From contig NZ_JALIQP010000004.1 of assembly GCF_023566055.1 (NCBI RefSeq), positions 62,001-126,000 on the forward strand: DNA of 64,000 nt, in the 5' to 3' direction. This stretch comes from Halosolutus amylolyticus (GTDB lineage Archaea; Halobacteriota; Halobacteria; Halobacteriales; Natrialbaceae). A program made the position numbers and the translations under genes. The notes under the pieces are model-generated. The model had not been told where the DNA came from. It did not search any database and saw only the letters and a list, made by a program, of their open reading frames with translations. Of the stretch, positions 8,084 to 57,916 are shown piece by piece; the first letter of the stretch is position 1, and each line of letters opens with the position of its first letter.

Positions 8084-11000
8084 ATGAGCACACGCGCCGA
8101 CGCTCCTGCGGATGCCTTCTGGGGGGACGTCGAGGACGATGTCGCGCTCCAGCGATATCGGACCCTCGTCAGTACGATCGACGACGGCATCTACCAGCTC
8201 GACGCGAACGGTCACTTCGTCGCCGTCAACGAGACGATCGTCGAGCTCACCGGCTACGCGCGCGACGACCTCATCGGCGAGCACGTTTCGCTGCTGATCG
8301 ACGACGACGACATCGCACGCATCACCGACCGAATACCGTCCGCCCTCGAGTCCGAGGCGGCCGACATCGAGACCCTCGAACTGACGATCGAGACTGCCGA
8401 GGGGGAGCGGATTCCGTGTGAGCTGCGGATCAACATGCTCGTCGAAGACGGGTCGTTCCAGGGCACGATCGGGGTCGCACGAGACGTCTCCGAGAAGCGA
8501 CGGCGGCAGGAATCACTCGCGTCCGCACAGGCGTCGTACGAGTCGATCACCGACGTGCTCGACGAGGCGAACATCGGAGTGGTCGTGCTCGACGACGAGT
8601 TTCAGATCGCGTGGACCGACGAGAAGATCGCGGAGTATCTCGGTCTCGATCGGGACGCCCTCGTCGGACGCGACAAACGACGGGTCGTCAACGAGACGAT
8701 GAAACACCGGTTCGCGGATCCGGAACGGTTCGCGGAGACCGTTCTGGCCACCTACGACGACAACAGCTACACCGAACGATTCGAGTGTCGCGTGACGGCG
8801 GACGACGGTCGCGACGGACGGTGGCTCGAACACTACAGCAGACCGATCGAGTCGGGACAGTACGGCGGGGGTCGGATCGAACTCTACTACGACATCACGG
8901 ACCGGAAGGTGACGGAGGACGCTCGAAAGGAGACCGAGGCGGAGTTTCACTCGCTGGTCGACGCCGTCGAGGAGTACGCGATCTTCCGCCTCGATCGGGA
9001 CGGACGCGTCATTAGCTGGAACCAGGGGGCGCGGGAGATCAAGGGCTACGATCGCGAGGAGATCCTGGGGGAGCACTTCTCGACGTTCTACACCGAGGAA
9101 GATCGGGCGGCCGACGTCCCAGCGCACAATCTCGAGAGGGCGCTCGAGAACGGCTCCGCCGAAGACGAGGGGTGGCGCGTCCGGAAGGACGGCACGCGGT
9201 TCTGGGCGAACGTGACGATTACGGCGATCAGGGACGTCGACGGCACCCACCGGGGCTACCTGAAAGTCACCCGCGATATGACCGATCGGCGGGAGCGCGA
9301 ACGCGAACTCGAGAGCGAACTCCAGCGCATCCTCGGCCGGATCTCCGACGCGTTCTACGCGGTCGACGAGGAGTTCAGGTTCACCCACGTCAACGAACGT
9401 GCGGAGGAACTCCTCCAGCAGTCCGAGGAGGAACTGCTCGGCAAGAGTATCTGGGAGGTGTTCCCTTCCGCCGCCGAAATCGAGGAGGTATCCGATGCCT
9501 TCCGGACGGCGATGGAATCGCAGGAACCGACCAGCTACGAACTCTACTACGAGACGCTCGAGTTCTGGGTCGAGGCGAACCTCTATCCCTCCGAGACCGG
9601 CATCTCGGTCTACTTCCGGGACGTCACCGATCGCAAGGAACGCGAGCAGGAACTCAGGCGGACGGAGCGTCGGTTCGAGGCGATTTTCAACGATCCGAAC
9701 ATCCTCGTCGGACTGTTAGACCCGGACGGGACGGTACTCGACATCAACGGGACGGCGATGGAGTACGTCGATGCCGACCTCGACGACGTGACGGGCAAGC
9801 CGTTCTGGGAGACGCCGTGGTGGGGTGGCGGCGATGGGGTCCAGGCCGACGTCAAACGGTGGACCGAACGGGCTGCGTCGGGCGAGTACGTGGAGTTCGA
9901 GGCCGACCTCACACAGCCGAACGGCGAAGCGTACACGCTCGAGGGCGTCTTCAGGCCCGTTACGAACGAAGAGGGTGAGGTCGTCTCGCTCGTCGTCTCC
10001 GATCGAGACGTCACCGAACGCAAGCGCCGCGAGCGGCAACTCAGGGAGTCCGAACAGCGCCACCGAACGCTCGCCGAGAACTTCCCGAACGGGATCGTCA
10101 CCATGTTCGACGACGACCTCCAGTACACCCTCGCTGCGGGGCGCGGATTCGAGGACCTCCCGATGTCACCGGCCGACGTCGAGGGCCACCCGGTCCAGGA
10201 CGTGTGGCCCGACCCCGTCTCCGACGCGCTCGAATCCGCGTTCCACGACGCACTCGAGGGCGAGACGAGCGCGATCGATCTCCAGTACGCCGGGCGGGAG
10301 TGGGTCGTCCGCGTGGTGCCGATATCCGACGACGACGGCGACGTCTTCGCGGGGATGACGATCGCCCAGGACATCACCGACCGCAAGGCGCGAGAACGCG
10401 CGCTCGAGGAGAGCGAACGTCGGTACCGCACGCTCGCGGAAAACTTCCCGAACGGCGCCGTCGGAGTGTACGACTCGGACCTCCGGTACACGCTCGCCAG
10501 GGGTGCCCTCATGGGCGAGCAGTTACCCAGCGCGGATCGACTCGAGGGGAGCCGGATGCCGGACGTCTTCCCCGAAGAGACGGTTTCGGATCTCGAACCG
10601 GTGTTTCGGGGAGCGATCGATGACGGCGAAACCGACAGCGTGACGACGGAATTCGACGGCCGCATCTGGCGGGTGTGGGCCGCGCCGCTTCGCGACGCCG
10701 ACGGCGAGATTTTCGCCGGCCTGAGTTTCGCCCAGGATATCACCGAGCAGGCCGAGCGCAAACGCAAACTCGAGGAGGTAATCGAGAAGCTGGAGGCATC
10801 CAACGAGCGTCTCGAACAGTTCGCCTACGCCGCCTCCCACGACCTGCAGGAACCGCTCCGGATGGTGTCGAGCTACCTCCAGCTTATCGAGGCCCGCTAC
10901 GCCGACGAACTGGACGAGGACGGCGAGGAGTTCCTCGAGTACGCCGTCAACGGCGCCGATCGGATGCGTGAGATGATCGACGGTCTGCTCGAGTACTCCC

Positions 11001-11599: not shown

Positions 11600-11998
11600 A
11601 TGACCGCTCAGGCGACGTCCTCGTCACCATCATCGATGGCCGCACGACCAGCCGGACTCGTGGCCGCAATCGGGACCTGGATCCTCCTGTCGGGTATCTT
11701 TCTGACTGGTTTCGGGTGGATCGTCACGCTGAACGTCCTCCTCGGGGCAACGATCGCCACGGTCGCATCGTACGCGGCGGCCTGGCCGTCGGACGGGCCG
11801 CTTCCCGGGCCGTCCCTCGTCGCCCCGCTGATCGCACTCGTGCTCGGGATCGTCGTGATCGCCCTGCCCTTCCTCCTGAACGTCGCCGACGCGCGAATGG
11901 TCTGGAGTAACGTGATCGCCGGAGCCCTCGTCGTGGTCCTCTCCGCGGCCGCCGTCTACGGGAGCGTGCAGTTGCAGAAGCGGACGACGCGTGCCTGA
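11600..11998 (+). CDS. SPW-repeat-like membrane protein
   Basis: 132 aa with four hydrophobic helices (about 20-38, 42-60, 72-95, 103-122). Two halves each carry a W...N-x-(L/I)-x-G-A motif (WIVTLNVLLGATIA and MVWSNVIAGALVVV), characteristic of SPW-repeat membrane proteins. Function of the family is unknown. The TGA stop (11996-11998) is formed by the first bases of a palindromic repeat element. No operon partner: the next gene is convergent. Confidence 0.72.
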   Translation: MTAQATSSSPSSMAARPAGLVAAIGTWILLSGIFLTGFGWIVTLNVLLGATIATVASYAAAWPSDGPLPGPSLVAPLIALVLGIVVIALPFLLNVADARMVWSNVIAGALVVVLSAAAVYGSVQLQKRTTRA

Positions 11999-12080
11999 TA
12001 CGGTTTACTGTACGTCAGTTCCGGCACAACCGCGATCCGGGCGGCGGTTGCGCCGGTACATCGGTACAGCAATCCGTATG
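11996..12080. repeat. 85-bp nested palindromic element, family 1 (copy A)
   Basis: Outer arms: TGATACGGTTTACTGT and, at the other end, ACAGCAATCCGTATG (imperfect complement). Inner stem CCGGCACAACCGC pairs with GCGGTTGCGCCGG (12 of 13). Short conserved unpaired spacers (GTCAGT; TCGGT) join the arms. It is nearly identical to the copy at 49244-49328 and equal in length. It lies between convergent genes. Confidence 0.85.
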
Positions 12081-23091: not shown

Positions 23092-23174
23092 CCGTATAGA
23101 TCGGTGGACGTCAGTGCCGGTGGGACCGCGACCCGTCCGCAGTCCCCCGGTAAATCGTTACAGCAGACCGTCTG
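23092..23174. repeat. Degenerate nested palindromic element, family 1 (copy D)
   Basis: The right arm GTTACAGCAGACCGTCTG resembles GTTACAGCAATCCGTATG of copies B and C; the conserved spacers GTCAGT and TAAATCG are kept, and an inner GGGACCGCG/CGCAGTCCC hairpin forms. The left arm is worn. Length (83 bp) fits the other five elements. It lies between two tandem plus-strand genes. Confidence 0.55.
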
Positions 23175-36115: not shown

Positions 36116-36199
36116 TATAGTAGCCACTGAAAGTCAATGCACACCTGATCGCAGGACGACTTTGCGATCAGTGTGTAAATCGTTTCAGTGGCTACTATA
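36116..36199. repeat. 84-bp nested palindromic element, family 2 (copy E)
   Basis: Perfect outer arms TATAGTAGCCACTGAAA and TTTCAGTGGCTACTATA (17 bp). Inner stem CACACCTGATCGCA pairs with TGCGATCAGTGTG (one extra C). Conserved spacers GTCAAT and TAAATCG match the family 1 elements. Differs from the 43747 copy only in three loop bases. It lies between convergent genes. Confidence 0.88.
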
Positions 36200-43741: not shown

Positions 43742-43746
43742 ACGGC

Positions 43747-43830
43747 TATAGTAGCCACTGAAAGTCAATGCACACCTGATCGCAGGACTGCGTTGCGATC
43801 AGTGTGTAAATCGTTTCAGTGGCTACTATA
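43747..43830. repeat. 84-bp nested palindromic element, family 2 (copy F)
   Basis: Outer arms are perfect over 17 bp inside the called limits, 18 bp with flanking bases (CTATAGTAGCCACTGAAA). Identical to copy E except for three loop bases. Inner stem TGATCGCA/TGCGATCA. It lies between the convergent doxX operon and the korB gene. Confidence 0.9.
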
Positions 43831-43894
43831 GACAAACAGCGACTCGGTCGCCGCCCGATTTTTCGATCGTCGAAATCCGGACCGCCGGTCGCGA

Positions 43895-44758
43895 TCAGTA
43901 GAACTCGCGGACGAGGTCCATCGCGTCGTCGGGCGCGCCGTCCGGAATCTCGGACATGTTCTCGGTGACGCCGTGCTGTTCGTGGTACGGGACCGAATTC
44001 TCTTCCTTGTACATCACGCCCTGGAACTCCTTCTCGCCGTCGAGGATGACTTCCTTCGCGGCCTCGTAGTCGGTCGGGTCGTGGCCCTCCTCCTCGAGGT
44101 CGACGAGGGTGTCGCGGAAGTAGTCGTAGGTGTCGACGTCGTTGAACGTGACGCAGGGGCTGAAGACGTTGACGAAGCCGAAGCCGTCGTGCTCGATCGC
44201 TTCCTGGACGATCTCCTGGTGGCGGAGGGCGTCGGAGGCGAACGACTGGGCGATGAAACTGGCTCCGGAGGCGAGCGCGAGCGCGAGCGGGTTGACCGGG
44301 GGCTGTTTCGGCCCTTCGGGGGTCGTCGAGGTCTCGAAGTCCGATCGCGACGTCGGCGAGGCCTGGCCCTTGGTCAGCCCGTAGATGCGGTTGTCCATGA
44401 CGACGTAGGTCATGTCGACGTTGCGGCGGACGGCGTGGACGAAGTGGCCGGCACCGATCGAGTAGCCGTCGCCGTCCCCACCGGCGACCATGACCTCGAT
44501 GTCGGGCCGGGCCATCTTGACGCCGGTGCCGACCGGGAGCGCACGGCCGTGGACCCCGTGGAGGGCGTAGCTGTGCATGTAGGTCCCGATCTTGCCGGAA
44601 CAGCCGATCCCGGCCACCACGAAGGTGTTGTCGGGATCGTTGCCGGTGTTCGCGAGGGCTTTCATCATGCCGTTCATCGTCCCGAAGTCGCCGCAGCCGG
44701 GACACCACGTTGGCTGTTTGTCGGACTTGAAGTCGGTGAATCTGACGTCGGAGCTCAT
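43895..44758 (-). CDS. korB: 2-oxoacid:ferredoxin oxidoreductase, beta subunit
   Basis: 287 aa. CPGCGDFGTMNGMMKAL and GIGCSGKIGTYMHSYALHGVHGRALPVGTGVKMARPDIEVMVAGGDGDGYSIG, the ThDP-Mg site with GDGD, then DNRIYGLTKGQASPTS. Starts MSSDVRFTDFK. Its ATG overlaps the stop of the alpha gene by one base. With that subunit it oxidises a 2-oxoacid, such as 2-oxoglutarate or pyruvate, and reduces ferredoxin with CoA. Confidence 0.92.
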   Translation of the reverse strand: MSSDVRFTDFKSDKQPTWCPGCGDFGTMNGMMKALANTGNDPDNTFVVAGIGCSGKIGTYMHSYALHGVHGRALPVGTGVKMARPDIEVMVAGGDGDGYSIGAGHFVHAVRRNVDMTYVVMDNRIYGLTKGQASPTSRSDFETSTTPEGPKQPPVNPLALALASGASFIAQSFASDALRHQEIVQEAIEHDGFGFVNVFSPCVTFNDVDTYDYFRDTLVDLEEEGHDPTDYEAAKEVILDGEKEFQGVMYKEENSVPYHEQHGVTENMSEIPDGAPDDAMDLVREFY

Positions 44759-46512
44759 TATGCGGGCACCTCCTCGGTGAGTTTCTGGGTAATCTCTTCG
44801 GCGAGTTCGTCCGCCTTGAAGCGAACACCCGTGTACTTGTTGATGCGCTTCACGCGGGTAAGCACGTCGTGTTCGATCACGTCGGCGAACTGGCCGGTCG
44901 CGTTACATTCGACGACGATCGTCTCGTCTGCGGCCTCGATCTCGTCGCTCAGGTCGGGGCGCGGGAAGATGTAGGGGACCGAGAGCACGCGGACGTCGAT
45001 GTCGTCCTCCTCGAGGTAGTCGAGCGCCTCGACGAGCGCGCCCTCGTTCGAGCCCCACGAGATGACGAGGTTGTCGGCGTCGGAGTTGCCGAATTCACGA
45101 TACTCCCAGGATTCCTGTTCTTTGGCCGTCTCGACCTTCCGGTTGCGCTTGTCGACCTGCTGGACGCGCTCGTCCTCGTCTTCGGTCCGGCGACCGAGTT
45201 CGTCGTGTTCGAGCCCCGTGCTCATGTGAGCGCCGTCGGTCGCGCCGGGGATGGCACGCGGGCTGACGCCGTCGTCGGTGACGGCGTGGGCGCGGAACCG
45301 ACCCTGGGCGTCGAGCCACTCGTCGACCTCGTCCTCGTCGACGAGTTTGCCGCGATCGATCTCGACTTCGTCCATGTCGAAGGCCTCGGGCGGGAACGTC
45401 TGTTCGGTGACCGACATCGCGAGGTCGGAGACGAGGAAGACCGGCGTCTGGTACTTCTCGGCGAGGTTGAACGCCTCGATCGTCTTCCAGAAGCACTCGG
45501 TGATCGACGTCGGCGCGACGACGAACCGCGGCACCTCGCCGTGGCCGCCGTACAGGGCCATGTTGAGGTCGCCTTGCTCCTGTTTCGTCGGCATCCCGGT
45601 CGAGGGACCGGAGCGCTGGACGTCGGCGATGACCAGCGGCGTCTCGCTGGTCGCGACCAGACCGAACGTCTCGGTCATGAGGTCGATCCCGGCCCCGGAC
45701 GTCGCGGTCATCGATCGGGCACCGCCGCGGGCGGCCCCGAGCGCCATGTTGATCGCCGACAGCTCGTCCTCGGCCTGGACGACGTGGCCGCCGTAGTCCT
45801 CGATCCGGCCCGTCAGGTACTCCATGATCGACGTCGCGGGCGTGATCGGGTAGCCGGCGTAGAATCGGCAGCCGGCGGCGATCGCACCCATGCCGATCGC
45901 CTCGTTGCCGTTCAGGAGGACGTAGTCCTCGTCGGTCGTCTCGAGATCGTATCCGAGGTGGTCCAGGTCGTAGTTCTCCTGGACGTACTCCTGGCCGAGG
46001 CGAGCCGCTTGCTTGTTGTTCTCGACGATCTTCGAGCCCTTGCCACCGAAGCGCTTCTCGAGGGACTCGTCGAGGTACTCGACGTCGAAGCCGGTGATCT
46101 CACACGCGGCACCGAGCGCGACGACGTTGCGCATGATGGCCCCGCCAGCGTCCTCGGCGAGCGACTTCAGGGGGACGTCGACGGCCGTCATCTCGTCGGG
46201 AATCTCGGCCTCCCACGAGCGTTCGCCGTCGTAGATGATGGCGCTGCCCTCGTGGAGTTCGTCCAGGTTCTCGTCGATCGTCCGCTGTGTCAGCGCGACG
46301 AGAATGTCCAGCCGATCGACGACGCTCTGGACGTCGTCGACCGCGGTCCGGATCTTGTAGGCCGTGTACCCCCCACGGATTCGCGACGCGAAGTCTTTCG
46401 ACGTGAATACGTGCCGTCCGGCTCTGGAAAGGGCCTGGGCAAAGATTTTCCCAGTGGAGTCGATTCCGTCCCCGGCCTCGCCTCCGATCGCCCAGTTGAG
46501 ATCCTCAGCCAT
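44758..46512 (-). CDS. korA: 2-oxoacid:ferredoxin oxidoreductase, fused gamma-alpha subunit
   Basis: 584 aa from ATG 46512 (MAEDLNWAIGGEAGDGIDSTG). The gamma domain occupies about 1-190 (GGEAGDGIDSTGKIFAQALSRAGRHVFTSKDFASRIRGG). The alpha domain starts near 205 with GNEAIGMGAIAAGCRFYAGYPITPATSIMEYL, the alpha signature. The gamma-alpha fusion is the common haloarchaeal form. Overlaps the beta gene; the divergent FNR-like gene starts 151 bp away. Substrate not fixed by sequence. Confidence 0.92.
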   Translation of the reverse strand: MAEDLNWAIGGEAGDGIDSTGKIFAQALSRAGRHVFTSKDFASRIRGGYTAYKIRTAVDDVQSVVDRLDILVALTQRTIDENLDELHEGSAIIYDGERSWEAEIPDEMTAVDVPLKSLAEDAGGAIMRNVVALGAACEITGFDVEYLDESLEKRFGGKGSKIVENNKQAARLGQEYVQENYDLDHLGYDLETTDEDYVLLNGNEAIGMGAIAAGCRFYAGYPITPATSIMEYLTGRIEDYGGHVVQAEDELSAINMALGAARGGARSMTATSGAGIDLMTETFGLVATSETPLVIADVQRSGPSTGMPTKQEQGDLNMALYGGHGEVPRFVVAPTSITECFWKTIEAFNLAEKYQTPVFLVSDLAMSVTEQTFPPEAFDMDEVEIDRGKLVDEDEVDEWLDAQGRFRAHAVTDDGVSPRAIPGATDGAHMSTGLEHDELGRRTEDEDERVQQVDKRNRKVETAKEQESWEYREFGNSDADNLVISWGSNEGALVEALDYLEEDDIDVRVLSVPYIFPRPDLSDEIEAADETIVVECNATGQFADVIEHDVLTRVKRINKYTGVRFKADELAEEITQKLTEEVPA

Positions 46513-47899: not shown

Positions 47900-48283
47900 T
47901 CAGTGTTCGACGAACTCTATCAGGATCCCGCCCGTATCCTTGGGATGCAGAAACGCGACCTCGTGGCCCCACGCGCCGGGGCGGGGTTCCTCGTCGATCA
48001 GTCGCACGTCGTGCTCGCGCGCGGTCTCGAGCGCGCCCTCGACGTCGTCCGTCGCGAGCGCCAGGTGGTGGATTCCCGGGCCGTTGGTCTCGAGATAGCT
48101 CGCGATGGTGCCGTCCTCGATCGGTTCGAGCAGTTCGAGGTAGCCGTCGTCGCAGTCGAGGAAGACGACGCGCATGCCGTCGAACTCCTCCTCGTGGGCG
48201 ACCTCGAGGCCGAAGAGGTCGGCGTACAGTTCCGCGAGACCCTGTGCGTCGTCGGTCGCGATACCGGCGTGATCGAAGTGCAT
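47900..48283 (-). CDS. mce: Methylmalonyl-CoA epimerase
   Basis: 127 aa, the length of the family. Glyoxalase-fold halves: MHFDHAGIATDDAQGLAELYADLFGLEV and GPGIHHLALATDDVEGALETAREHDVRLI. Metal ligands His5 and His in IHHLALA, Glu in YLELLEP and in GGILIEFVEH. Interconverts (R)- and (S)-methylmalonyl-CoA for the mutase encoded at 51160. Propionyl-CoA pathway, cytoplasmic. The end of the gene is 38 bp from the convergent upstream gene. Confidence 0.9.
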   Translation of the reverse strand: MHFDHAGIATDDAQGLAELYADLFGLEVAHEEEFDGMRVVFLDCDDGYLELLEPIEDGTIASYLETNGPGIHHLALATDDVEGALETAREHDVRLIDEEPRPGAWGHEVAFLHPKDTGGILIEFVEH

Positions 48284-48361
48284 CGTGTCGTACTCGACGC
48301 GGGGTACGTGTTACTGTTGGGATTTTTCGTGCGGTATCCGGTTCCGGCGTCGAGGGCGCGC

Positions 48362-49198
48362 TCAGCGCAGGCCGATCGCGGCGGCCAGCCGATCCCAGAC
48401 GCCGCCCATCTCCGCGACGGTCCGCATCTCCTCGTCGGTCAGTTCGAAGTCGAAGACGTCGGCGTTCGCCGCGATGTGCTCGCGGCTCGACGCCTTCGGA
48501 ATCGGCGCGACGAACGGCTGCTGGAGGAGCCACCGGAGCGCCACCTGGGATGCAGACTTGCCGTCCCGCTCCCCGATCGCCGCGAGCCGATCGTCGCCCG
48601 GCACCGCGCCCTCGGCGAGCGGGCTGTAGGCCGTCAGGCAGATCTCGTGGTCGACGCAGTACTCGAGCAGATCGTCCTGGTGGTGGTAGGGGTGGTACTT
48701 CACCTGGTTCGTGACGATCGGCGTCTCCGAGAGCTGTCGAGCCGTCTCGAGTTGATCCACGGAAAAGTTGCTCACTCCGATATGGTCGACGAGGCCCTCG
48801 TCCTTGAGTTCGTTCATCGCCTGAAGCGTCTCTTCGAGGGGCACGTGGGACCGCGGCGCGTGAATCAGGAGGAGATCGATCGTCTCGAGTCCGAGCCGAT
48901 CGAGACTCGCCCGCGTCGACCGGTGGACGTCCTCGAACCCGAGGTTGCCGGTGTCCACCTTCGTCGTGACGAAGACGTCGTCCCGATCGACGCCGCTCGC
49001 CGCTATCGCGCGGCCGACGGCCTCCTCGTTGTCGTACATCTGGGCGGTATCGACGTGGCGATAGCCGACCTCGAGCGCGATTTCGACGGCTCGCTGGCAC
49101 TCCGCACCCGTCATCCGTGCAGTCCCGAACCCGAGCGCCGGAATCGTCGCCCCTCCCGCGTCGATCGTGGCTGTCGAGACGTCGCGATCGGACTCCAT
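48362..49198 (-). CDS. Aldo/keto reductase
   Basis: 278 aa from ATG 49198 (MESDRDVSTATIDAGG); the in-frame ATG at 49207 adds three residues. AKR barrel: LGFGTARMTGAECQRAVEIALEVGYRHVDTAQMYDNEEAVGRAI (catalytic Asp and Tyr), VTTKVDTGNLGFEDV (Lys), LLLIHAPR (His). C-terminal NADPH-binding PIPKASSREHIAANADVFDFEL. Reduces aldehydes or ketones, NADPH-linked; substrate unknown. Confidence 0.9.
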   Translation of the reverse strand: MESDRDVSTATIDAGGATIPALGFGTARMTGAECQRAVEIALEVGYRHVDTAQMYDNEEAVGRAIAASGVDRDDVFVTTKVDTGNLGFEDVHRSTRASLDRLGLETIDLLLIHAPRSHVPLEETLQAMNELKDEGLVDHIGVSNFSVDQLETARQLSETPIVTNQVKYHPYHHQDDLLEYCVDHEICLTAYSPLAEGAVPGDDRLAAIGERDGKSASQVALRWLLQQPFVAPIPKASSREHIAANADVFDFELTDEEMRTVAEMGGVWDRLAAAIGLR

Positions 49199-49243
49199 AC
49201 CGACCATTCGTCGAAGGCGATATTCAACGTCAGGCCCGCATTG

Positions 49244-49328
49244 TGATACGGTTTACTGTGAGTCATTTCCGGCGCAACCGCGATCCGGGCGGCGGTTGCG
49301 CCGGTAACTCGTTACAGCAATCCGTATG
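49244..49328. repeat. 85-bp nested palindromic element, family 1 (copy B)
   Basis: TGATACGGTTTACTGT at the left and ACAGCAATCCGTATG at the right; inner stem CCGGCGCAACCGC pairs perfectly (13 of 13) with GCGGTTGCGCCGG. Almost the same sequence and length as copy A at 11996. It lies between the aldo/keto reductase start and the Vms1-like gene start, the only copy in a divergent region. Confidence 0.88.
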
Positions 49329-49510
49329 AGGCCGGATCCGAATCCGGTCCCCACGATCCGGTCACCGACTGCCTTGCTCGCGCCGGCACGGTACTCAACA
49401 CCGCGACGCCATTACGATCGAGTCACACCGTCCGATCGAACTGGCGGGATTCGGTCCCTCTGACCGCCGTTCTTGCGGGTTCCCACCTCCCGCGACGCAT
49501 CTCTCAGACA

Positions 49511-50593
49511 ATGGCAACCGACGACTACGAACTCTACGATCGAATCGATCGATTGGCCGACGTCACGGCCGACCGCGACGTCCTCGTCAGCAGGGCCGTC
49601 ACGCCCGAGGCATCGATCGGCGAGGCGCGCCAGCCGGTCGAAACCGACTACGCCGAGGCGACCCAGCTCGACGAGCGGTCCGACCCCAGACAGCTCGTCG
49701 ACGCCCTCGAAACCGTCCGCAGCGAACTCAACGAGTACGACGAACTCCCCGAGAACGGGCTCGCGATCTACGCCGGCGTCCCCGACGACGACCTCGTGAC
49801 GGCCGTCTTCGACGATCCGCCGGCGCCGATCGCCCAGTCGACCTACGAGCACGCGAACGAGTTCGACCTCGACCCGCTGGCCGAGGTGACGGAACCGTCC
49901 TCGACGCACGGCCTGCTCGTCGTCGAGCGCGGCGGGGCGGCGCTCGGCCGACTGGACGACGAGGGCGTCGAGGTGATCGACAGCTTCGACAGCGACGTCC
50001 CCGGGAAATCGAGCGCCGGCGGCCAGTCGGCCGAGCGGTTCGAGCGCGATCGCGAACGGCAGAAACGCGACTTCTTCGACACCGTCGCCGAGCGCGCCGC
50101 GCAGTCGTTCCTCGGCGACGACCCCGTCGACAGCGTCCTGCTCGGCGGGACCATCGGCACGATCGAGGCGTTCCGCGACGAAGCCGACCTCGATCATCGT
50201 CTCGCAGACCGACTCGTCGATACCGAATTCGCGATCGAGTACGCGACCGAACAGGGGCTGCGAGAACTCGCCGAAAAGGGCCGGGAACACCTCGACGATC
50301 GCGAACGCGACGAACCACGCGAGCACCTCGATCGGTTCTTCGCGGGGATTCGCGACGACGAAGAACCGATCGCCTACGGCCGCGAGGAGGTCGACGACGC
50401 GCTCGAGTACGACGCCGTCGAGACGCTCTTGCTCTCGACTACGCTGGACGGGCGGTCGTTCCGCGAACTCGGCGATCGCGCCGACGAACAGGGCGGCGAA
50501 ACGGTCGTCGTTCCGGACGACTTCGCCGATGGCGACAGGTTCGCCGACGCGTTCGACGGCGTCGGGGCGCTGTTGCGGTTCCCGATCGAGTGA
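49511..50593 (+). CDS. Vms1/ANKZF1-like release factor homologue (aRF1-like)
   Basis: 360 aa. Layout of archaeal peptide release factors: N-terminal domain to about 125, central domain with KSSAGGQSAERFERDRERQKR (GGQ near 170-172), C-terminal ELD-like domain DEEPIAYGREEVDDALEYDAVETLLLSTTLDG, as in aRF1/Pelota-type domain 3. GGQSxxRF is the signature of the VLRF1/Vms1 group that hydrolyses peptidyl-tRNA on stalled 50S subunits in ribosome quality control. A distinct paralogue of the genuine release factor, not replacement for it. A Nudix gene follows 64 bp downstream. Confidence 0.8.
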   Translation: MATDDYELYDRIDRLADVTADRDVLVSRAVTPEASIGEARQPVETDYAEATQLDERSDPRQLVDALETVRSELNEYDELPENGLAIYAGVPDDDLVTAVFDDPPAPIAQSTYEHANEFDLDPLAEVTEPSSTHGLLVVERGGAALGRLDDEGVEVIDSFDSDVPGKSSAGGQSAERFERDRERQKRDFFDTVAERAAQSFLGDDPVDSVLLGGTIGTIEAFRDEADLDHRLADRLVDTEFAIEYATEQGLRELAEKGREHLDDRERDEPREHLDRFFAGIRDDEEPIAYGREEVDDALEYDAVETLLLSTTLDGRSFRELGDRADEQGGETVVVPDDFADGDRFADAFDGVGALLRFPIE

Positions 50594-56141: not shown

Positions 56142-57806
56142 ATGCGTCACGCGAAGGGACCACTGCTCACCGTCGACGTCGGTGAGCGGACCGCGACCGA
56201 GACGACGATCGACGAGTTGCTCGAAACCTACGTCGGCGGGCGAGCGGCCGCGACGGCGCTCGCACACGAGCGGATCCCGTTCGACGCCGACCCGTTCGAC
56301 CCGGACAACCGGGCGTACCTGTCGACGGGCCCGCTCCAGCAGTCCCAGATGTCCTTCACCGGTCGGATGAACATGACGGGGCTGTCGCCGCTGACCGACG
56401 GCCTCGTCTCGACCAACGCCGGGGGCTACCTCTCGCGGAACTTCGTCGGCACCGGGATCAGCGTCCTCGAACTGGTCGGCGAGAGCGACGAGTTGCTCGC
56501 GGTGCACGTCCGAGACGACGGAGTGTCGTTCGAGGAAGTACCGGAACTCGAGGGGGCAACGGTGCCCGAAACGTCCGACTACATGGACGACCGGCACGGC
56601 CTCGGGCCCGAACACTGCATCGCGATCGGGCCCGCGGGGGAGAACCGCGTCCGCTTCGCCTCGGTGATGACGTTCGACTCGCGTGCGTTCGGCCGCGGCG
56701 GCCTGGGTGCGGTGCTGGGCGCGAAGAACGTCAAGTGCGTCACATTCGAGGGCGACGCGGCGCCGCCGGTCGAGATTCCGGACCCGCCGGAGATGGACAT
56801 CCACCGGGAAGCGGCCCAGTCGGACGACCTGATGCGCCGGCAGGGAACGACGGGCGGCACGGAGTTCATCAACGACAACTTCTCGCTGCCCACCCGCTAC
56901 TTCCGGGAGTACGAGTTCGAACACGTCGCGGACATCGGCGGCGACGCCGTCGAGGAGAAAAAGTACAAGAAAGGGGCGTGCTCGGCCTGCGCGTACGCCT
57001 GCAAACTGCCGACGCGGGACGAGGAGACGGGCGTCGAGACCGAAGGGCCCGAGTTCGAGACCGTCTATTCGTTCGGCTCCTGCCAGGGTGTGGGGGACAT
57101 CGTCGACGTGATGAGAGGGAACGAACTCTGCGACACGCTCGGGATGGACACAATCTCGGCCGGCGTCACCGTCGCGGCCTACCTCGACAGCGAGGACGAG
57201 TTCGGCAACGCGGCCCTCGCCCAGGAGGTGACCGAGAAGATCGCCTATCGAGAGGGGATCGGCGACGTGCTCGCGGCGGGCGTCGATCGGTGCCACGACG
57301 ACCTCGGCGTCGACAACTACACCGTCAAGGGGATGGAGTTCGCGGCCCACGACGGCCGCGTCCTCCACGGCCAGGGCCTGTCCTATGCAGTGGCGAACCG
57401 CGGCGGAGATCACATGTACGCCGGAATGTTGAGCCTCGAGTACAGCGGCGAACTCGACCCGGAGGGCACCCTCGGGAAGGCCGAGACCCTCGTCGAGGAG
57501 GAGAACGCCTCCGCGTTCCGGGACACCGGTATCGTCTGTGCGTTCGGGAGCGACTACGTCACCGACGAGCGCCTCGAGACGCTCTTCGACGCCGACTACG
57601 ACGACCTCATGGCCGTCGGCGCGGCGACCGTCCGCCTCGAGCGCCACTTCAACAACCAGCGCGGGTTCGATCGCGCCGACGATCGACTCCCCTACGAGAT
57701 TCCAGATCTCGAGGACGCGATCGAGGAGTACTACGACGCCCGGGGCTGGGACGACGGGATCGTGCCCGACGAAACGATCGAGACGGCCGTGCCGTCGGCC
57801 GACTGA
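56142..57806 (+). CDS. Aldehyde ferredoxin oxidoreductase family protein
   Basis: 554 aa from ATG 56142 (MRHAKGPLLTVDVGERTATE). AOR layout: LSTGPLQQSQMSFTGRMNMTGLSPLTDGLVSTNAGGYLSRNFVGTGISVL, pterin-binding FGRGGLGAVLGAKNVK, [4Fe-4S] ligands CSACAYAC (near 279) with the fourth Cys in ELCDTLGMDTIS. Oxidises aldehydes with tungsten-bis-pterin and ferredoxin. The gene stop TGA (57804-57806) is formed by the first bases of palindromic copy C. A MoaD/SAMP-type gene lies 1.9 kb away. Confidence 0.9.
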   Translation: MRHAKGPLLTVDVGERTATETTIDELLETYVGGRAAATALAHERIPFDADPFDPDNRAYLSTGPLQQSQMSFTGRMNMTGLSPLTDGLVSTNAGGYLSRNFVGTGISVLELVGESDELLAVHVRDDGVSFEEVPELEGATVPETSDYMDDRHGLGPEHCIAIGPAGENRVRFASVMTFDSRAFGRGGLGAVLGAKNVKCVTFEGDAAPPVEIPDPPEMDIHREAAQSDDLMRRQGTTGGTEFINDNFSLPTRYFREYEFEHVADIGGDAVEEKKYKKGACSACAYACKLPTRDEETGVETEGPEFETVYSFGSCQGVGDIVDVMRGNELCDTLGMDTISAGVTVAAYLDSEDEFGNAALAQEVTEKIAYREGIGDVLAAGVDRCHDDLGVDNYTVKGMEFAAHDGRVLHGQGLSYAVANRGGDHMYAGMLSLEYSGELDPEGTLGKAETLVEEENASAFRDTGIVCAFGSDYVTDERLETLFDADYDDLMAVGAATVRLERHFNNQRGFDRADDRLPYEIPDLEDAIEEYYDARGWDDGIVPDETIETAVPSAD

Positions 57807-57887
57807 TACGGACTGCTGTAGTCAATTACCGTCGATCACCGACCCCGTTCTGGTGATCGGCGGTAAGTAGTTACAGCAATCCGTATG
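57804..57887. repeat. 84-bp nested palindromic element, family 1 variant (copy C)
   Basis: Arms TGATACGGACTGCTGT and ACAGCAATCCGTATG; inner stem CCGTCGATCACC pairs with GGTGATCGGCGG (11 of 12), unlike the stem of copies A and B. Spacers GTCAAT and AAGTAGT are conserved. It lies between convergent genes and contains the stop codon of the AOR gene. Confidence 0.85.
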
Positions 57888-57916
57888 ACGCGATCGGACC
57901 GGCCGGTCCGGCGTCG

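Follow-up and report, generated by a model that had tools for sequence, protein, structure and literature searches.

Nested palindromes of the haloarchaeon Halosolutus amylolyticus are probable IS630-type MITEs, many of them located on duplicated stop codons

Results

Six palindromes of two types lie in the window

The DNA analysed here, a stretch of 64,000 nucleotides of the Halosolutus amylolyticus genome (hereafter the window), carries six nested palindromes, two of which directly follow genes for an SPW repeat domain protein and an aldehyde ferredoxin oxidoreductase (Table 1). All six were found at the coordinates given in a preliminary description of this DNA, and their outer arms, inner stem and asymmetric spacers (left GTCA, right ATCG) matched that description. 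Its positions were right, but its boundaries took in the target duplications; without these, the element measures 80 bp, or 79 bp in one copy (57807-57885). The six, described there together, belong to two types with differing ends and duplications. Type I runs from TACGG to CCGTA (window copies at 11999, 23095, 49247 and 57807) and type II from TAGTAGCC to GGCTACTA (36118 and 43749). Both share one layout, made up of outer stem, asymmetric spacer, inner stem and loop, with a normal length of 80 bp. Within the young subfamily of type I, no variation occurs at the positions of GTCA and TCG. When copies were folded singly, five of the six in the window gave z-scores from -4.7 to -9.6, which none of 200 shuffles equaled, and the decayed copy at 23095 gave z = -2.45. 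No tRNA was found.

Table 1. Coordinates of the palindromes, their duplications and host genes, and of related features elsewhere in the genome (window positions unless a contig is named)
Feature	Position	Strand	Remarks
Host gene, SPW repeat domain protein	11660-11998	+	Ends in duplicated TGA; Pfam SPW, residues 2-96 of 112
Left target duplication TGA	11996-11998	+	Stop of gene 11660-11998
Probable MITE, type I, 80 bp, young subfamily	11999-12078	+	Flanks: left TGA, right TGG (decayed duplication)
Probable MITE, type I, decayed	23095-23171	+	Without intact duplication; weaker fold
TA target duplications of the 36118 copy	36116-36117 (left), 36198-36199 (right)	not applicable	
Probable MITE, type II, 80 bp	36118-36197	+	
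Probable MITE, type II, 80 bp	43749-43828	+	TA duplications 43747-43748 and 43829-43830
Probable MITE, type I, 80 bp	49247-49326	+	TGA duplications 49244-49246 and 49327-49329
Host gene, aldehyde ferredoxin oxidoreductase	56142-57806	+	Ends in duplicated TGA; AFOR_N, AFOR_C to residue 547 of 554
Left target duplication TGA	57804-57806	+	Stop of gene 56142-57806; right copy 57886-57888
Probable MITE, type I, 79 bp, second subfamily	57807-57885	+	Inner stem CCGTCGATCACC
Full IS630 transposons, TA duplications	G000:C7:168538-169590 and 169766-170821		DDE_3 transposase domain
Third-type copies	G000 (this genome): C4:6950-7057, C4:469879-469986, C2:65266-65373, C7:28609-28686, C4:203675-203752		
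Six empty sites	C2:182394, C4:412622, C4:444518, C2:215882, C2:278402, C4:230413		Last: left flank only

Two of the six copies (57807 and 11999) lie on the stop codon of a called gene and the other four on none. The 49247 copy is found between the starts of the divergent genes 48362-49207 (minus strand) and 49511-50593 (plus strand). Two further stops taken from the raw open reading frame list, at 49246 (plus-strand frame 47903-49246) and at 43746 (minus-strand frame 43746-44828), were dropped at gene calling. The window also contains two pairs of diverged direct repeats, 2106-2267 with 2530-2691 (162 bp, 82%) and 10007-10134 with 10370-10497 (128 bp, 73%), both possibly repeated protein domains.

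The elements are dispersed and flanked by target duplications

The three bases flanking type I agree between left and right in 50 of 57 copies; they are nearly always TGA or TCA and vary together, TGA with TGA and TCA with TCA. The target context is GNCTSAGNC, of which the 3-bp TSA is duplicated. Type II copies are flanked by a duplicated TA (46/53), mostly within CTAG. Both types have terminal inverted repeats, no coding capacity and arms that are paired in most copies, and they occur as dispersed multiple copies at sites that are filled here and empty in relatives, which together with the target duplications are the features of MITEs.

A genome scan for terminal repeats accompanied by a duplication recovered both types, full IS630 transposons and a third MITE type of 78 or 108 bp, with ends TACTGCCGGACAAAA, nested stems of its own and TCA, TGA, TAA or TTA duplications. 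In 1.593 Mb of this genome we counted 106 copies, namely 68 of type I, 33 of type II and 5 of the third type, which corresponds to about 300 when scaled by proportion to the 4.59-Mb genome; the six copies described earlier are those of the window. Among 41 related genomes sampled, type II matched in 18 and type I in 14, and every genome with matches belongs to the Natrialbaceae, the family of the host. In a plasmid collection, type I occurred mostly in Natrialbaceae, and type II was additionally present in Haloarcula, Halomicrobium and Halostella.

Eight filled sites were compared by alignment with the sister species G001 and G002. At six of them no element is present in the relative, whose gene terminates at the corresponding position, where the alignment shows TGA; the right flanks have diverged between species, and the exact sequence before insertion was recovered in only some of these empty sites. 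Of the other two, the alignment of C2:371414 is poor around the stop, and C1:25821 was uninformative.

Copies are in places found next to one another. Two type I elements stand head to tail with exactly one TGA between them (G000:C1:351581-351660 and 351664-351740; L403:11581-11740), as if the duplicated target had served twice. At G000:C2:22948-23076 a type II remnant directly adjoins the terminus of a type I element, and genome G021 carries closely spaced type II tandem pairs whose starts lie about 90 bp apart (contigs C84, C50 and C15).

Stem changes are paired between subfamilies

The differing inner stems had been presented as a covariation-like pattern. Such covariation is real between subfamilies: among 60 type I copies, 14 pairs changed on both sides (7.7 in shuffles) with 64 such cells (27.1 in shuffles), and the structure signal exceeded all slid control versions, bearing in mind that the shuffles ignore relatedness and that most of the signal lies between subfamilies. 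It does not extend to the young subfamily, whose 25 copies show 12 one-sided and no compensated changes in the inner stem, next to 11 one-sided and 4 both-sided changes in the outer stem. The uncompensated inner-stem changes therefore indicate that copies decay after insertion and that the hairpin is not maintained by selection at its locus. In this subfamily both orientations of the apical loop are found, GATCCGGGCG and CGCCCGGATC, on different position-20 backgrounds, as though the centre of the palindrome flips.

Because the inner stem is uncompensated and the loop occurs in two orientations, we favour correction of the palindrome at the DNA level, or a need for the hairpin in transposition, over RNA selection at each locus. 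The former, a putative template switching or arm-to-arm conversion in the source copies without any selection on structure, has about an even chance of being the cause of the stem covariation: the two loop orientations and the lack of compensation after insertion speak for it, but a hairpin or cruciform needed in transposition would leave similar traces between subfamilies.

Related IS630 transposons have like ends and duplications

Contig C7 of this genome contains two full IS630 transposons with TA duplications (Table 1), whose ends read TAGTAGTCGTTAGAA then GTAATTACTC on one side and TTATTTGCTC on the other. The type II ends, GAAAGTCAATGCAC and GAAACGATTTACAC, have the same left/right asymmetry, and type II thus matches an IS630 element of its own genome both in its ends and in its TA duplication. 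Because the C7 elements show this asymmetry, the "conserved unpaired spacers" of the preliminary description are best read as the inner parts of left and right IS630 transposon ends.

For type I, starting from a transposase of genome G026 (L328), we found a group of IS630 elements, 1.04-1.15 kb long, that have TSA duplications in the same context as type I; their hosts are Halobacteriales MAGs, Halomicrobium katesii, Natronomonas aquatica, Halovenus salina and others. The ends of this group, for example TACGGTCGTGCGTTAGTTTTTACCGG, and those of type I, TACGGATTGCTGTAACGATTTACCGG, are partly alike, at 16 of 26 positions, counted by eye and concentrated in TACGG and TTTACCGG. A transposase fragment of this group matched Pfam DDE_3 above the cut-off and scored 85.6 bits against the NCBIfam IS630 model, for which the cut-off of 100 is set for the whole protein. 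The catalytic-domain tree separates the main 3-bp group (support 100/100), and a further 3-bp element (L326 of G015) falls on the other side; since the latter sits outside the main clade, the 3-bp duplication may have had two origins, in a tree that is midpoint-rooted and in which long branches meet. The supported clade of IS630 transposons that duplicate 3 bp instead of TA is new here.

In this genome we found TA-type IS630 transposases and none of the 3-bp clade, so the partner of type I is missing here, either lost or unseen. PF13358 gave no match in the MITE-rich genomes G006, G007, G010, G021 and G023, in which the partner transposase seems lost or diverged. Scans of viral contigs with the end sequences returned chance-like matches only, and no paired ends at MITE spacing.

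Halomicrobium katesii has two type I-like ends, flanked by TGA duplications, at a distance of 1116 bp (L354:1384-2499), which may be a composite or a chance pair. As a type I parent this 1.1-kb pair was rejected: the frames it encloses look ordinary and by eye none is transposase-like.

Duplicated triplets of type I are frequently stop codons

Genes were called with a purpose-written codon-usage caller, and by these calls, on which the stop-codon counts rest, the duplicated triplet is the stop codon of a called gene in 44 of 68 type I copies. This placement is new here. Outside coding sequence 18% of CTSAG sites are stops, so that about 12 were expected against the 44 observed (P = 3e-17). When only sites up to 150 bp downstream of gene ends are considered, 58% of CTSAG sites coincide with the stop, and the observed 44/58 is still a modest excess (P = 0.0035). 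Only 1 of the 106 copies lies inside a called gene, though roughly half of all CTSAG sites are there. The target GNCTSAGNC is identical for stop and non-stop copies, and it resembles the common haloarchaeal gene end GAC-TGA.

Fetched loci, used as a second test, showed a similar picture, with 22/30 loci from this genome (partly overlapping with the census copies) and 13/27 from relatives at stops, hence 35/57 overall, compared to 6/71 control CTSAG sites. In the deposited annotation, a CDS ends on the duplicated stop in four of six opened plasmid records with type I; these encode an archease, an FAD oxidoreductase, a PHP protein and a glycosyltransferase. As the duplicated TGA falls on the stop, the protein is left intact. 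The duplicate that does not serve as the stop has changed in 14 of the 44 copies, often from TGA to CGA; a changed stop-serving duplicate, with read-through into the element, was seen in none of the 44, a count that is partly circular since a lost stop alters the gene call. Some type II copies also lie at gene ends, where the former TAG stop was within CTAG; there the frame runs 13 bases into the element (TAT AGT AGC CAC TGA), where the terminal repeat supplies the TGA that ends it. Relative to the gene, 26 type I copies are in opposite and 18 in the same orientation, without clear bias.

We conclude that the excess of type I at stop codons most likely results from the purging of harmful insertions together with a target motif that is like haloarchaeal gene ends. 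Full-length IS insertions of the 3-bp type fit this, since 0 of 18 have a coding-like frame ending at the duplication, in keeping with survival rather than aiming; these were scored with the codon usage of this genome, while their hosts differ and the copies may be younger. Active targeting of stops as such, beyond the motif, for instance through access coupled to transcription or translation, would account for the 44/68 copies at stops, for the modest excess over nearby CTSAG sites and for the difference between fetched and control loci. We consider it unlikely, given that non-stop copies carry the same target palindrome, that the full-length insertions lack such frames and that loss of coding insertions explains most of the excess. 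Also unlikely is the bolder proposal that type I and its IS630 clade form a stop-codon-seeking transposon (GNCTSAGNC, 3-bp stagger), whose hairpin would provide many genes with a portable 3' end.

Discussion

Our data very probably identify the palindromes as non-autonomous MITEs moved by DDE transposases of the IS630/Tc1-mariner family, with insertions in coding sequences lost and those at stop codons tolerated. The transposase would recognize two ends that share their outer part, the inverted repeat, and differ in their inner parts (GTCAnT on the left, ACGATTTA on the right). The element would then be cut out and inserted at a short palindromic target, which is CTAG for type II, giving a 2-bp TA duplication, and GNCTSAGNC for type I, giving a 3-bp TSA duplication. 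Many type I targets would be stop codons because CTGAG contains TGA and Asp-stop (GACTGA) is a frequent ending of haloarchaeal genes. Insertion at such a site would duplicate the stop and leave the protein unchanged, so that the copy is tolerated, while we infer that insertions within coding sequences were lost. The transposase that moved type I may have belonged to the 3-bp group, judging from the partly similar ends and the shared TSA duplication.

The preliminary description had argued against simple copying; transposition is precisely what would spread these elements. It had also allowed that two unrelated insertion sequences might explain the stem differences, and there are indeed two MITE types that correspond to different IS630 subgroups, each with subfamilies, but the types are related to each other.

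Our results give no support to its central proposal, that a functional hairpin is under selection. A cis-acting RNA or DNA hairpin kept at each locus as a terminator, stability element or small RNA would agree with the very stable folds, the compensatory changes between subfamilies and the strong concentration at gene 3' ends. Yet the inner stem of the young subfamily decays uncompensated, type I has no clear orientation relative to the gene, sister species manage without the element at the same sites, and within the window no Rfam family matched above its gathering score; with the target duplications and transposon ends added, such selection appears improbable. Mobilization of type I by an IS5-family transposase, in whose IS1031 subgroup a 3-bp TNA duplication is usual, is the least probable reading of all, as the PF01609 loci of this genome (the only genome considered for this label) have no type I-like ends in their flanks, similar ends and TSA duplications do occur in IS630 elements, and type II, which is clearly IS630-like, has the length and inner motifs of type I.

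If the palindromes are IS630-type MITEs, an apparent RNA mystery becomes a mobile-element family with identifiable relatives. It would also be a clear case in which target motif and purging together put a transposon on stop codons, where the stop is duplicated and the protein spared. A 3-bp clade within IS630/Tc1-mariner is relevant to the question of what fixes the distance between the two target cuts made by DDE transposases, and the TA-type and TSA-type elements present in the same hosts offer a natural comparison.

In the literature, of which our coverage was incomplete and which did not extend to ISfinder, we found no account of these elements, of a 3-bp TSA duplication in IS630 or of stop-codon placement. 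IS630 MITEs as such are already known, and type II is of this ordinary kind. RUP of Streptococcus pneumoniae, a 107-bp MITE derived from IS630-Spn1, has 108 copies, IS630-like ends and a TA target (PMC2229807). Type II works in the same way; in contrast to RUP, our elements are archaeal, 80 bp long and close to a continuous single hairpin, and type I duplicates 3 bp (TSA) and is found for the most part on stops. Correia/NEMIS elements of Neisseria are short, high-copy, TA-flanked inverted repeats whose transcripts fold into long stem-loops, and for which RNase III processing and an IHF site have been described (PMC2229807); the likeness to our MITEs is one of architecture, without a shown sequence relation.

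Among haloarchaeal repeats, the SMR of Haloquadratum are nearest in size, being transposase-free, about 80-110 bp long and bounded by terminal inverted repeats, and they were reported without target duplication; PATE of the same genus have no terminal inverted repeats but IS605-like palindromes near their termini (PMC3119063). Our elements have clear duplications and are set apart from both by the published descriptions, as distinct from sequences. The SMR label fails on these duplications and on ends that match transposons, and the PATE (IS605-type) label on terminal repeats and duplications. That of REP/RAYT, short GC-rich palindromes that lack a duplication and are moved by a Y1 transposase, likewise fails on the duplications.

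IS630 and ISY100 are described with TA duplications (PMC2170065), and IS630 prefers CTAG according to Tenzen and Ohtsubo (1991), as cited in PMC2170065. The elements reported here resemble them in having parents with a DDE_3 transposase and a length of about 1.05-1.15 kb, and type II uses CTAG as IS630 does, whereas the 3-bp TSA clade departs from the 2-bp TA duplication described for the family (PMC2170065).
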